Both the position numbers and the translations under genes were made by a program. Positions 48,368 through 55,758 of a stretch of DNA of 64,000 nucleotides are shown here, one piece after another (the first letter of the stretch is position 1; every line of letters begins with the position of its first letter). Origin of the DNA: Leptolyngbya sp. 'hensonii' (GTDB lineage Bacteria > Cyanobacteriota > Cyanobacteriia > GCF-001939115); NCBI RefSeq assembly GCF_001939115.1, contig NZ_MQTZ01000019.1, positions 1 through 64,000 of the forward strand, given 5' to 3'. Under the pieces are notes generated by a model that worked only from the letters and a program-made list of their open reading frames with translations, was not told the origin of the DNA and searched no databases.

Positions 48368-48373
48368 TCCTTA

Positions 48374-48444
48374 TGTGTGAGGAGCGAACCAGCAAGAGCA
48401 CCGAGACGAAACACGGTCAGTCGTCGGTGCTCTTGCTGATTTTT
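48374..48444 (+). ncRNA. Candidate ~70-nt small RNA or terminated leader
   Basis: From the predicted start, the RNA reads GTGTGAGGAGCGAAC and then a 15-bp perfect stem. CAGCAAGAGCACCGA (48390-48404) pairs with TCGGTGCTCTTGCTG (48424-48438), followed by ATTTTT, an intrinsic terminator. A gene for a lumenal protein starts 25 bp further on. It could be a free small RNA or an attenuator of that gene. The 5' segment GTGTGAGGAG is the exact complement of the Yfr1 core (CUCCUCACAC), as I remember it. Confidence 0.5.
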
Positions 48445-49802: not shown

Positions 49803-50672
49803 TCAGCACGCTGTCAGGACTGATCGCTCCAAAGATGTACTCTCTGGCCGCATGAGGGAGCGTCCTACAGCCGTTGCGATCGGGTCTAGGCTTGTCACCA
49901 GATCCACCATATCGGTCAGGGAGAGTGCCTGTCGAGCATCCGAGACAGACTGTTCAGGGGCTGGGTGGCACTCGATGATCAGCCCATCAGCACCGCAGGC
50001 GATCGCAGCTCTGGCCAGATCTGGGACCAGTTCTCGTTTGCCGGCGGCATGGCTGGGATCTACCAGCACGGGTAAATGGCTGATTTGTTTCAGGGCGACT
50101 ACAGTTCCCAGATCCAGAACATTGCGGGTATGGGAATCGAAGCTGCGAATGCCTCGTTCACAGAGCACCACATTGGGATTTCCATGGCTCAAGATGTATT
50201 CGGCAGCCAGGAGAAACTCTTCCAGGGTAGCAGCCAGTCCCCGCTTGAGTAGCACAGGTTTATTTACCTGCCCCAGTGCTTTTAAGAGATCAAAGTTGTG
50301 CATGTTCCGACTGCCAATCTGGAGCATATCAGCATAGGCTGCTACGGTCTCAATCTGGGCGATCGCCATGACCTCGGTTACGACAGGCAGACCGGACTCT
50401 GCCCGTATCGCTGCCAGAATTTCCAGCCCTGCCTCTCCCAGTCCCTGGAAGGCGTAGGGTGAGCTGCGAGGTTTGTAGACCCCCCCCCGGAGTGCCTGTA
50501 CGGCTATCGGTTTGAGGCGGGTTGCAACCTGTTCCATTTGGGAAAAGCTCTCCACAGAACAGGGACCGCCAATGATCAGAAGTTGGCGATCGCCGATCGT
50601 GATCTCCTCAGTCAGTCGCACGACAGTGCGATGGGTTGGATGGGCTTTGGCTGCGAGTTTAGCATTGAGCAT
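49803..50672 (-). CDS. aroF: 3-deoxy-7-phosphoheptulonate (DAHP) synthase
   Basis: First enzyme of the shikimate pathway, condensing phosphoenolpyruvate and erythrose 4-phosphate. 289 residues of the AroF class I-beta type. Seen: IIGGPCSVESFSQM, QALRGGVYKPRSSPYAFQG, VVTEVM, LQIGSRNMHNFDLLKALG, KPVLLKRG, VLCERGIRSF, HLPVLVDPSHAAGKRELV, GLIIECHP. The start MLNAKLAAKAHP matches family N-termini as I recall; frames continuing upstream to 50882 are leader sequence. No ACT regulatory domain is present. The messenger carries a ~350-nt leader with two aromatic-rich peptides and two terminators, so control by attenuation is strongly suggested. Confidence 0.95.
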   Translation of the reverse strand: MLNAKLAAKAHPTHRTVVRLTEEITIGDRQLLIIGGPCSVESFSQMEQVATRLKPIAVQALRGGVYKPRSSPYAFQGLGEAGLEILAAIRAESGLPVVTEVMAIAQIETVAAYADMLQIGSRNMHNFDLLKALGQVNKPVLLKRGLAATLEEFLLAAEYILSHGNPNVVLCERGIRSFDSHTRNVLDLGTVVALKQISHLPVLVDPSHAAGKRELVPDLARAAIACGADGLIIECHPAPEQSVSDARQALSLTDMVDLVTSLDPIATAVGRSLMRPESTSLERSVLTAC

Positions 50673-50714
50673 AGGTCGAGAATCCTTAAAGTTGGGGTTG
50701 GATGGGTCAACAAC

Positions 50715-50745
50715 AAAAAACCCGGAACCTGATTCAGGCTCCGGG
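50715..50745 (-). terminator. Attenuator terminator 2 of aroF
   Basis: On the minus strand CCCGGAGCCTGA (50734-50745) pairs with TCAGGTTCCGGG (50721-50732), with one A-C mismatch (the remaining pairs are Watson-Crick), followed by TTTTTT (50720-50715). It lies between leader peptide 2 and aroF, 43 bp before the aroF start. Its 5' arm can alternatively pair with an identical upstream copy of its 3' arm at 50773-50785. Confidence 0.9.
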
Positions 50746-50785
50746 TGGGCAGAAAAGCGGCATAACAGCTTTACCCGGAACCTGA
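50734..50785 (-). promoter_or_regulatory. Antiterminator alternative pairing of attenuator 2
   Basis: On the minus strand TCAGGTTCCGGGT occurs twice: at the end of leader 2 (50773-50785) and in the terminator 3' arm (50720-50732). Both can pair with ACCCGGAGCCTGA (50734-50746). The upstream pairing frees the terminator 3' arm, giving a mutually exclusive antiterminator. A ribosome finishing leader 2 would cover the upstream copy and restore termination. Confidence 0.8.
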
Positions 50786-50833
50786 GGGGCTCCAGAAATA
50801 AAAGCCATAAAACCAGCAATTGAGGGAAAGCAT
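50771..50833 (-). CDS. Aromatic-rich attenuation leader peptide 2 of aroF
   Basis: A 20-codon frame starting ATG at 50833 and ending TAA at 50771. It encodes MLSLNC followed by WFYGFYFW (codons 7-14) and SPSGSG. Seven of eight consecutive codons are Phe, Tyr or Trp. Its last codons form the antiterminator copy of the 13-mer shared with terminator 2. It is not a conserved enzyme domain and is too short for standard gene finding. The reading as a translated sensor of charged aromatic tRNAs is inferred by analogy to the trp and pheA leaders of enteric bacteria. No strong ribosome-binding site is seen. Confidence 0.8.
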   Translation of the reverse strand: MLSLNCWFYGFYFWSPSGSG

Positions 50834-50883
50834 CACGATCGTCGAGAAATAGCTTCAGCGGTACATCAGGCAGTCTGGTCAAT

Positions 50884-50913
50884 AAAAAAGGCTGCAGACA
50901 CTACCCTGCAGCC
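50884..50913 (-). terminator. Attenuator terminator 1 of aroF
   Basis: GGCTGCAG (50906-50913 on the minus strand) pairs perfectly with CTGCAGCC (50890-50897) across an 8-base loop, followed by TTTTTT (50889-50884). It sits 28 bp after the stop of leader peptide 1. It could also end transcripts of the upstream MFS gene. Confidence 0.88.
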
Positions 50914-50955
50914 CACCTGAGTTCCACATCAAACTGTGGTTCACACCAGGTGGAC
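50911..50955 (-). promoter_or_regulatory. Antiterminator/pause hairpin of attenuator 1
   Basis: The 3' codons of leader 1 (GTCCACCTG) can pair over 9 bp, including one G-U, with CAGGTGGGC (50911-50919). CAGGTGGGC includes the first three bases of the terminator 1 stem. A smaller CCACA/TGTGG hairpin (50935-50939/50924-50928) is nested inside. The geometry parallels attenuator 2: leader tail against terminator base. Confidence 0.6.
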
Positions 50956-50991
50956 CTCCGTAAAAAAGTACCAGTAATAAAAGTTGGGCAT
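50941..50991 (-). CDS. Aromatic-rich attenuation leader peptide 1 of aroF
   Basis: A 17-codon frame (ATG at 50991, TGA at 50941) encoding MPNFYYWYFFTEVHLV. Codons 4-10 are seven consecutive Phe, Tyr or Trp residues. It lies between the MFS stop codon and terminator 1. This composition is very unlikely by chance and typical of amino-acid attenuation leaders. A possible promoter is TTGACG (51048-51053) with TACGGT (51025-51030), spacing 17, on the minus strand. The upstream ribosome-binding site is weak. Confidence 0.82.
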   Translation of the reverse strand: MPNFYYWYFFTEVHLV

Positions 50992-51049
50992 TCGATCTGC
51001 CGAGTTATTGAGTGAGTATTTATCACCGTAACAAAGGGATGGAGGCCCG

Positions 51050-52258
51050 TCAAGTTGCATCCGCTTGCCTGTCTCCCCACAGAATGCCTGCTGCTGCGAG
51101 AACGAACGCAACCATGGCCATGAATCCACAACTGGACAGAGCAATCTGGTTGGACTGGGCAAAGAGATAGCCGAATAAACTGATGGCGGCTGAGAAGCCT
51201 CCGAAATACATCCCGATCGCCAATCCCCCCTGTGAAGCTGGCGTCATGGAGAGGGCCAGGGGAATGGCACCGTTCAACACCAGGCTCAAACAGGCCAGCA
51301 GACAGAGGGTGACCAGGGACACCAGCACCCCACTGGGAGGAAGGAAGGCCAACGCCCCGATCAGGCCAGCAACTCCCACGGCACCCAGGGCCATCATGGG
51401 TCGGTTGCCCTGACGGGTCGCGATCGTGCCTGCCGGAACTGAGAATAGAGCCAGGAGAATGGAAACCATGCCCATGAGGAACCCCACATTGAACGTGGGC
51501 AGGCCCATCTGCAACAGTCGGGGCAGGATCTCACCCAGGGCAAGACGCACACCCCAGGCAACGCAAAAGCCAATTCCGAACAACAGGCTGACAGATGTAA
51601 CCCAGGTGTTTTTCTCCGCAGAAGGGTCTGTTCCGGCTGGAGAAATGGCGGTCTGAGGACGAACAGCGCGTAGAACAGCAGCAGATCCCAGCAGGGTGAA
51701 TGAGCCGATCGCAAAGGTTAATGCTGGTCCCAGGCTCAATAAAAACCCTGAAGCCAGGGGACGGATAGCGCCAGCTAAGCCACCGACCAGGGTCAGAATA
51801 CTGGCGGCCTGGGGCAATTTGGTTGCGAAGGCATACTGACCCAGGAGGCAGAGGGCAGGACTGCGAAACACGGTCATGGCCAGGGACCAGGCCACAATAA
51901 TCAGTATCAGCACCCACCGCATGCCGTCAGTTGGTCGCCCCAGAAGGACGATCGTGGGAATGGCGATAAACAGAGCCGAGGAGAGAATAACACCCACAGA
52001 GATAAAGGGAAAGCGGGTACCCAGCCAGCGCTGCCCTCGATCGGAAAGCCCGCCCATCAAGGGTTCCATCACTACGGCTAGGGCATTTTCTATAATCAGC
52101 AATCCCCGGCCCAGATGATCGGGGAGGCCAAAATCGGTGAGTAGTTTGACCAGATAAACGCCATAAATCACCCAGGCCAGGGTAATGGCTCCCTGCACAG
52201 TGGCCAGGGCGAAAACCTGTAGCCAGAGAACGCCCGATCGGGGTTTTGTCTCATCCAT
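51050..52258 (-). CDS. Major facilitator superfamily transporter
   Basis: 402 residues with 12 hydrophobic helices. MFS signatures are GGLSDRGQRWLGTRFPFI between helices 2 and 3 and AGTIATRQGNRPMM in the second half. LGRGLLIIENALAVVMEPLMGGLSDR recalls the sugar/cation (GPH, SUC-like) branch. The substrate cannot be inferred. Its stop codon lies 58 bp upstream of leader peptide 1 of aroF on the same strand, so read-through into the aroF leader is possible. Confidence 0.88.
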   Translation of the reverse strand: MDETKPRSGVLWLQVFALATVQGAITLAWVIYGVYLVKLLTDFGLPDHLGRGLLIIENALAVVMEPLMGGLSDRGQRWLGTRFPFISVGVILSSALFIAIPTIVLLGRPTDGMRWVLILIIVAWSLAMTVFRSPALCLLGQYAFATKLPQAASILTLVGGLAGAIRPLASGFLLSLGPALTFAIGSFTLLGSAAVLRAVRPQTAISPAGTDPSAEKNTWVTSVSLLFGIGFCVAWGVRLALGEILPRLLQMGLPTFNVGFLMGMVSILLALFSVPAGTIATRQGNRPMMALGAVGVAGLIGALAFLPPSGVLVSLVTLCLLACLSLVLNGAIPLALSMTPASQGGLAIGMYFGGFSAAISLFGYLFAQSNQIALSSCGFMAMVAFVLAAAGILWGDRQADAT

Positions 52259-54251: not shown

Positions 54252-54734
54252 CTAGAAGCGATTCGTCCCCCAACCGGGTGCTTTCTCTGCAGCCTGCAGA
54301 ATGAAAGCGGCCAGATTTTCAACTTGAGCCTGGGAGAGCCAGCTCTCCGGAACCTGTCGGCAGAAAACGGCTTCTTCACTGCCGTCATAGGTCATGGGTT
54401 GCCTGAGGTAGGCCACTAAGCTGTTGATCGTAGCTCGGGGTGGGGTGGCTCCCTGCAGGTCAGCCAGGGAAAGGGAAACCAGGGGATTGGGTAAGGTTGA
54501 GCCGCCCACATGACAGCCCTTACAGTTGTCTTCAAATAAGTGCTTGCCTTCAGAGAGGGCTTGTGGGGAAAAAGAACGGGTCTGGCCCTGCTCATTCAGG
54601 ATTACAGGAACTGGTTCTACAGCCCGCAGGTACCGTGCAACATAAGGATCGATCGAGGCAGCCTGAACTGGCGGACTGACGATCCAAACGGTCAGAAAAA
54701 TCAAAAGAGACCACAGGAGGCGTTGCACAGGCAT
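54252..54734 (-). CDS. psbV2: Cytochrome c550-like protein PsbV2
   Basis: 160 residues. A signal peptide (LLWSLLIFLTVWIVSPPVQA) precedes a c-type haem motif CKGCH. It also has SIDPYVARYLRAVEPV and LADLQGATPPRATINSLVAYLRQPMTYDG, paralogous to psbV next door. Where PsbV has the distal His (YMHNPTTYDG), this protein has YLRQPMTYDG. A Cys appears about 13 residues later (AVFCRQ). This fits the unusual axial ligation I recall for PsbV2, which has a His/Cys haem. Role in photosystem II is unclear. Confidence 0.88.
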   Translation of the reverse strand: MPVQRLLWSLLIFLTVWIVSPPVQAASIDPYVARYLRAVEPVPVILNEQGQTRSFSPQALSEGKHLFEDNCKGCHVGGSTLPNPLVSLSLADLQGATPPRATINSLVAYLRQPMTYDGSEEAVFCRQVPESWLSQAQVENLAAFILQAAEKAPGWGTNRF

Positions 54735-54864
54735 GATGAATCTCTGAGACCAAATAGAACGGATAAAAAATTAGGGACCGACAGAAGAGAGGGCGTTTTA
54801 ATTCTCCCACCTCCATCGGCCCCATCGAAACTTAATGAATTAAGTCACAAGGTTGAGACAAGCC

Positions 54865-55356
54865 TTAGTAATAAATCTTGCCACCGCCCCACTTAACCCC
54901 TACAACCTTAGGCTGTAGAAGAATGTGGCCTGCGATCGCATACAAATCTTTCTCTGTCAGATTACGCATCTTAGGGAAGATGTCCGTGCTCTGAGTACTG
55001 GGATGCAGTTCGGCGATTGAAGCTGCCCCGTCGTACGTGGTCGGATTGTGCATGTAATCCACTAATGCTTCGATATTGTCCCGTCGGGGAGTTGCCAGCG
55101 CCAAAGTCTCCGGAGCCAGGTCAAGGTTCGGATCGGTCTTGGTCACCCCACCGACATGGCAGGTGCTGCAGGCATAGTTAAATAGACGCTTCCCTTCAGC
55201 CACTTGCTTCAGGCTCAGGACAACGGTGTCTCCCTTATCGTTCAAGGTAATCGTACGGGTTGCTTCATCCAGTTCAGTCGCATTAGCGGGGCCTGTCAGC
55301 ATCTGAAAGGCAAAAAATACAGTGGCTACTACCAGCCAGATGTATCTCTTAAGCAT
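54865..55356 (-). CDS. psbV: Photosystem II cytochrome c550 PsbV
   Basis: 163 residues. The signal peptide (YIWLVVATVFFAFQMLTGPANA) directs it to the thylakoid lumen. The haem motif CSTCH lies after KRLFNYA, and the distal-ligand segment is VDYMHNPTTYDG. The C-terminus KVVGVKWGGGKIYY is characteristic. It stabilises the oxygen-evolving complex. AGGAG just before the ATG at 55356 defines the start. psbV2 follows 130 bp downstream, the order known from Thermosynechococcus. Confidence 0.96.
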   Translation of the reverse strand: MLKRYIWLVVATVFFAFQMLTGPANATELDEATRTITLNDKGDTVVLSLKQVAEGKRLFNYACSTCHVGGVTKTDPNLDLAPETLALATPRRDNIEALVDYMHNPTTYDGAASIAELHPSTQSTDIFPKMRNLTEKDLYAIAGHILLQPKVVGVKWGGGKIYY

Positions 55357-55758
55357 GGTTCTCCTTTTAAGCTTGGCACAGTTTTCTACTATCAGATTTT
55401 CATCTAAGGAGCTCAATCAACTGGTGCTGTCTGAATCGAGAGTTACCTCCTGCCTCTGAGCAAGAGCGCTAGAGATGGGTGCTTTGGCATCCTCCAGAGT
55501 CAGACGAGTCTGAGGACCCTGGTCAGTAATCCCCAACTGACCGCAGAAACAAAGGGGTTTCTCAGGAAGAGAAAACTCTCATCAAAAGAGAAAAACCTCA
55601 GAAATTTCGGCGATCGACAGGTCCGCAAAACCCATGACTTTGCCAGCTAACAGGACTGATTGAGTCTTTATCAATACCAATATCATGACATTGAGTGGAC
55701 TCTTTTTAGCAGTTCGCCTCAGCGGATTAAAAATCGTTGCTGGCTTGTTCCCGAAGCA
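55357..55758. other. 402-bp intergenic region upstream of psbV
   Basis: Contains the psbV promoter region. Another part lies after accD; an imperfect hairpin (GAGGTTTTTCTC ... GAGAAACC) around 55555-55602 could be the accD terminator on the minus strand or a leader structure. No gene recognised. Confidence 0.4.

Follow-up and report, generated by a model that had tools for sequence, protein, structure and literature searches.

Upstream of an aroF-type DAHP synthase gene, one 13-nucleotide sequence occurs in the last codons of a short aromatic-rich open reading frame (ORF) and again in an intrinsic terminator, which raises the question of whether the two copies form a regulatory switch, what such a switch would read and how widely it is kept. 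The gene (49803-50672, minus strand, 289 aa) matches NF006421 (1.4e-117) and TIGR01361 (2.2e-106) above their curated cut-offs and lies within a 64,000-nt stretch of the genome of Leptolyngbya sp. 'hensonii', hereafter the window. Its product is the first enzyme of the shikimate pathway and the point of entry to it. Judged from anatomy, conservation, covariation, coding constraint and geometry, the region in front of this gene is very probably the second of two serial ribosome-mediated transcription attenuators controlling aroF in a cyanobacterium.

All elements described here lie on the minus strand. The 13-mer TCAGGTTCCGGGT is present in exactly two copies, at 50785-50773 and 50732-50720. 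The first copy forms the codons TCA GGT TCC GGG T(AA) of leader peptide 2 (MLSLNCWFYGFYFWSPSGSG), which runs from the ATG at 50833 to the TAA at 50771 with a GTG at 50836 as an alternative start, and the second serves as the 3' arm of terminator 2, with TTTTT directly after it. Between them, ACCCGGAGCCTGA (50746-50734) is a pairing partner for either copy, the bare duplex comprising 13 base pairs, including one G.U, at -24.8 kcal/mol. Four segments can be distinguished: segment 1 (CTGGAGCC, 50795-50788), a putative protector strand inside the codons Phe-Trp-Ser-Pro with a predicted hairpin partner in GGTTCCGG; segment 2, the first 13-mer copy and 5' strand of the antiterminator; segment 3, ACCCGGAGCCTGA, common to antiterminator 2 and terminator 2; and segment 4, the second 13-mer copy with its T-run (50732-50715). 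Terminator 2 is an intrinsic terminator between the leader ORF and the gene, with a 12-pair stem, a 3-nt loop and a T-run. The sequence-only reading had held that the end of leader 2 is identical to the 3' arm of this terminator and that both copies can pair with the same segment, and both statements proved correct. When 50715-50833 was dinucleotide-shuffled 3000 times, an exact repeat of at least 13 nt arose in 2 cases; for the longer interval 50672-51060, the figure was 4 of 3000. Class-wide conservation covers about 8-10 nt, (G)TTCCGGGT pairing with ACCCGGAA(C), and the exact 13-mer is a local extension of this shorter segment. Most homologues also keep a GTCATGC/GTCGTGC-like motif between the leader-2 stop and terminator 2, found in the window within GTTATGCC (50770-50747), the antiterminator loop; no pairing found in this analysis accounts for the motif, and a polymerase pause signal is one possibility.

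The dependence of these folds on ribosome position was explored for attenuator 2 by constrained folding, the edge of the ribosome being set at 9 nt. A ribosome with the last Trp codon in its A site leaves 10 of the 13 bases of segment 2 free, and the 2:3 duplex forms; when segments 1-3 have been made and the ribosome stands on codons 11-14, the probability of 2:3 is 1.0; and once the stop codon occupies the A site, the ribosome covers segment 2 and 2:3 is impossible. The competing folds proposed from the letters, in which a stalled ribosome leaves the upstream copy free and a finishing one covers it, are both recovered in this way. The accompanying view that no extra hairpins are needed is doubtful and probably wrong, given a predicted 1:2 hairpin between CTGGAGCC and GGTTCCGG (50795-50788 with part of segment 2), whose energy is -12.5 kcal/mol in the window and averages -7.5 kcal/mol in homologues. 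Until segment 3 emerges, segment 2 of the free RNA is sequestered in this hairpin (P = 0.99), and a ribosome on codons 12-14 prevents the hairpin from forming. At equilibrium, the full-length leader adopts 1:2 together with 3:4, which means that antitermination must be kinetic. If the 1:2 hairpin were absent, read-through would follow whenever the ribosome was released or the leader went untranslated. The homologue alignment contains no covariation in the 1:2 helix, and synonymous recoding gives a weak signal (71 of 100 better than the median, 1.1 kcal/mol on average); on the predicted folds, the hairpin is likely a protector as in classical attenuators.

To place the locus in a comparative setting, relatives of aroF were gathered from named genomes and from 390 genomes of the class, and the upstream DNA of about 150 of them was fetched; a search at the level of the order returned only the genome itself. 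Nearly all of the fetched upstream regions carry leaders. By an automatic and stricter count, of 139 cyanobacterial aroF upstream regions drawn from 17 families, about 133 have leader 2 and at least 117 have both leaders, the figure for leader 1 being a lower bound as the pattern misses some leaders 1.

The two leader peptides are exceptional in composition. Among 831 short ORFs in the window, they are the only ones with at least six aromatics in any nine residues. In homologues, leader 1 takes the form M...YFYFWF..VHRE and leader 2 the form M...WFYGFYFWPR.SSG, its pattern starting W-F/Y-x-F-Y-F-W, and F, W and Y are all found in nearly every copy of both. Within the aromatic block of leader 2, 42% of single-base codon differences are synonymous, compared with 16% of all possible changes, and 23% exchange one aromatic residue for another, compared with 6% of all possible changes. 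This is the substitution pattern predicted by codon sensing of any aromatic residue, and the constraint suggests that the leader is translated. No obvious Shine-Dalgarno sequence is seen at either leader in the window.

Further evidence comes from the pairing itself. In 100 non-redundant upstream regions, thinned by k-mer similarity without a tree (relatedness inflates such tests), the 2:3 duplex averages -18.3 kcal/mol with its own partner versus -15.9 kcal/mol with swapped partners, a difference reached in 0 of 5000 permutations, and synonymous recoding of the leader costs the pairing 6.4 kcal/mol on average, with p<0.05 in 68 of the 100. At two variable positions, the 5' arm of the terminator forms Watson-Crick pairs with the leader copy in 72 of 78 and 63 of 78 cases; shuffling leads one to expect 58.5 and 34.9, and none of 5000 shuffles reached the observed values. 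When the 5' arm is compared with the 3' arm of its own terminator, the register of which was set by a simple pattern, agreement is lower (50 of 73 and 38 of 73), because conserving the pair with the leader leaves G.U pairs in the terminator. The pair types TA, CG and GC all occur inside a single family (f24). Double-changed cells number 41 for 2:3 versus 21.2 in shuffled data and 46 for 3:4, the stem of terminator 2, versus 20.5, and pairs of both helices rank among the top in a structure-free covariation scan. Compensatory change is thus present in both helices; homologous leaders in which the segments vary and pairing is lost were looked for among the 100, and the opposite was seen, pairing being preserved. 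Two rewired clades, whose bases were compared by eye from printed sequences, illustrate this most directly: in one, the leader ends ACC GGG TCA GGC TTG TGG TGA and the arm reads CCTGACCCGG, and in the other, the leader ends CCA CCG GGT AGG TAG and the arm reads ACTTGCCCGG, so that segment 2 has shifted in both sequence and position with 2:3 complementarity kept.

Attenuator 2 is one half of a tandem pair and not a stand-alone switch. The order of the unit is promoter, leader 1, terminator 1, leader 2, terminator 2 and aroF. The promoter in front of leader 1 reads TTGACG-17-TACGGT (51053-51025), with a -35 element at 51053-51048 that is conserved in homologues and a -10 element at 51030-51025 that is the commonest among them. 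The distance from the end of the -10 element to leader 1 is 33 nt in the window, with a median of 39 nt in homologues, and 127 of 136 homologues have TTGAC plus TWNNNT at normal spacing in front of leader 1, versus 2.9% of shuffles. Leader peptide 1 (MPNFYYWYFFTEVHLV, 50991-50941), conserved in homologues, has seven aromatics in nine residues. Its codons E-V-H-L contain segment 2 of attenuator 1 (GGTCCACCTG, 50956-50947), the antiterminator 5' strand, which pairs with segment 3 (CAGGTGGGCT, 50919-50910) to form antiterminator 1; terminator 1 uses segment 3 as well, on its 5' side. The terminator 1 hairpin (50914-50889), with a T-run ending at 50884, is matched by the covariance model of attenuator 1, termed R1, at E=3.9e-8. 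In homologues, the duplex averages -22.5 kcal/mol with its own partner versus -18.7 kcal/mol with swapped partners (0 of 5000 permutations); 94.7% of antiterminator cells are paired, 7 of 11 pairs have changed on both sides, and 61 cells are double-changed versus 20.4 in shuffled data, covariation as strong as that of attenuator 2. The folds of attenuator 1 are also consistent with the placement of a stalled or finished ribosome.

Besides their aromatic blocks, both peptides have conserved C-terminal ends (VHRE and SSG), which might be taken to mean that the nascent peptide itself arrests the ribosome in the manner of TnaC, its end causing a stall on a free aromatic metabolite. RNA pairing explains these ends, however, since GGTTCACC and TCCGGG are the antiterminator strands, and in the rewired clades the end of leader 2 turns to SGLW or PPPGR with complementarity kept. 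The occurrence of all three aromatics in nearly every leader, mutually replaceable, likewise suits codon sensing better, and peptide arrest is considered improbable. A riboswitch or a protein-controlled terminator, for which translation of the small ORFs would be incidental, deserves still less credence: alternative terminator and antiterminator folds are also typical of riboswitches, but no Rfam family matches the region, no aptamer-sized structured domain is seen in it, and aromatic-rich frames under coding constraint are present in both switches. An Rfam scan of the window above gathering score returned only a tRNA and Cyano-1, with no attenuator leader, T-box or riboswitch, and a scan at relaxed thresholds gave nothing relevant at the region. 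Weak Rfam matches to anti-hemB and MIR2086 were discarded as chance or as reflecting the terminator alone. Finally, it is scarcely conceivable that these are two ordinary terminators with GC-rich arms repeated by chance and short ORFs left untranslated: terminators often share GC-rich motifs and the 13-nt repeat does turn up in those 2 shuffles of 3000, but more than 130 genomes conserve the arrangement, with covariation between leader and terminator arm and with coding constraint.

With two serial attenuators as the preferred reading, the following course of events can be proposed. A sigma-70-like promoter would start transcription about 25-35 nt before leader 1, and each leader peptide would be read through its Phe, Tyr and Trp codons. 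A shortage of charged tRNA for any one of the three would stall the ribosome in the aromatic block, where it would mask segment 1 and leave segment 2, in the last codons, free; segment 2 could then pair with segment 3 ahead of the synthesis of segment 4, blocking the terminator and letting the polymerase go on. When all three amino acids are plentiful, a ribosome at the stop codon would cover segment 2, the 3:4 terminator would form and transcription would end. After release of the ribosome, the 1:2 hairpin would probably keep segment 2 occupied. With both gates reading one signal, their effects should multiply, so that the basal level would be lower and the response steeper. The degree of transcription-translation coupling in cyanobacteria is uncertain, and the reported translation-independent localisation of photosystem mRNAs (PMC7858274) counts against the tight coupling needed for attenuation.

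The distribution of the unit was also followed with covariance models. R1 has matches in 145 of the 390 genomes, one per genome, and these precede the aroF positions by a few hundred bases, as found by comparing the tables by reading. Five R1-matched genomes lack an aroF entry: in three, the leaders lie at contig ends or the genes are cut, one has a decayed aroF and one match is probably false. A weak R1 match in genome G121 (E=3.4e-4) was taken as false, there being no leader at that site. Over 194 genomes of the phylum, R1 matched only genomes of the same class, and R2 gave no second convincing match in the genome itself. The fetched genomes of family f10 (L211, L213-L215) and the single genome of f41 (L188) have attenuator 1 only, directly before aroF, which indicates that the tandem is reducible to one gate. 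In one locus (L262, G115:C48:72000-74400), leader 1 is intact (MFSSRSYFYFWFRVVHWE), leader 2 is absent and only an approximately 50% identical aroF fragment (residues 46-104) lies downstream; this is probably a decaying aroF unit. Two loci on contigs labelled Candidatus Melainabacteria (L015 and L017) have leader 1 and an ORF resembling leader 2 in which complementarity is kept, and these contigs are either mislabelled or misbinned, or the range of the unit is wider than the class. Neither trpE nor the second DAHP synthase of the genome itself (L002, contig 57, NF009933 subfamily) has an aromatic leader; attenuation thus does not extend to the whole pathway and concerns only one DAHP synthase isozyme.

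The proposed switches resemble attenuators of the E. coli trp, his and pheA type in having codons for pathway products in a short leader ORF, an intrinsic terminator, an antiterminator that excludes the terminator and shares its 5' arm, and a predicted 1:2 protector. They differ from this type in being cyanobacterial, in occurring two in series, in having all three aromatics in each leader, in placing segment 2 inside the last codons of the peptide and in matching no Rfam leader family. Leaders of aroF have been predicted in Acholeplasma (uORFC-13-1; PMC8632094) and in Corynebacterium glutamicum (PMC4046766), and these share the type of target gene, Phe/Tyr codons and attenuator features; by their descriptions, however, they are single attenuators from other phyla with Phe or Phe-Tyr-Phe only. 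Two translated short ORFs in series within one leader are also known from Salmonella mgtCBR, a tandem called a singular example, in which mgtM and mgtP sense ATP and proline without intrinsic terminators (PMC3641672), whereas both gates considered here share one codon set (Phe, Tyr and Trp) and have intrinsic terminators. Tandem riboswitches, such as that of metE in B. clausii (cited in PMC3641672), likewise place two terminators in series; there the RNA binds ligands, whereas here the sensor would be the translating ribosome.

Attenuation by leader peptides has long been known; its tandem same-signal form and its occurrence in cyanobacteria appear to be new. In a survey from 2010, the only phyla with leader peptides were Proteobacteria, Actinobacteria and, newly, Firmicutes (PMC2965389), and a paper from 2016 states that there are no reliable data on attenuation in cyanobacteria (PMC4833913). 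No report of leader-peptide attenuation in cyanobacteria was found in open-access main text, nor was any architecture found there in which two gates read one set of three amino acids. It seems probable that attenuation exists in Cyanobacteria and is ancient there, with the promoter, two same-signal attenuators and aroF forming a unit conserved across many families. If so, the phylum would couple transcription and translation tightly enough for attenuation, and a doubled gate would have been selected at the entry to aromatic synthesis. Since aroF sets the flux into Phe, Tyr and Trp and into products such as scytonemin, its leader is a natural target for engineering aromatic production in cyanobacteria. 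A conserved and covarying attenuator of this kind at aroF would fill the cyanobacterial gap (PMC4833913), and coupling becomes directly testable with one reporter construct.

Two other features of the window may be mentioned. The Cyano-1 RNA match lies at 48371-48442 on the plus strand, scoring 41.2 against a gathering score of 41, and overlaps an ORF start at 48373. At 54252-55416 on the minus strand, two adjacent genes encode secreted cytochrome c-like proteins of small size that contain CxxCH motifs; inspection of the translation by eye suggests a pair like cytochrome c-550 (psbV).
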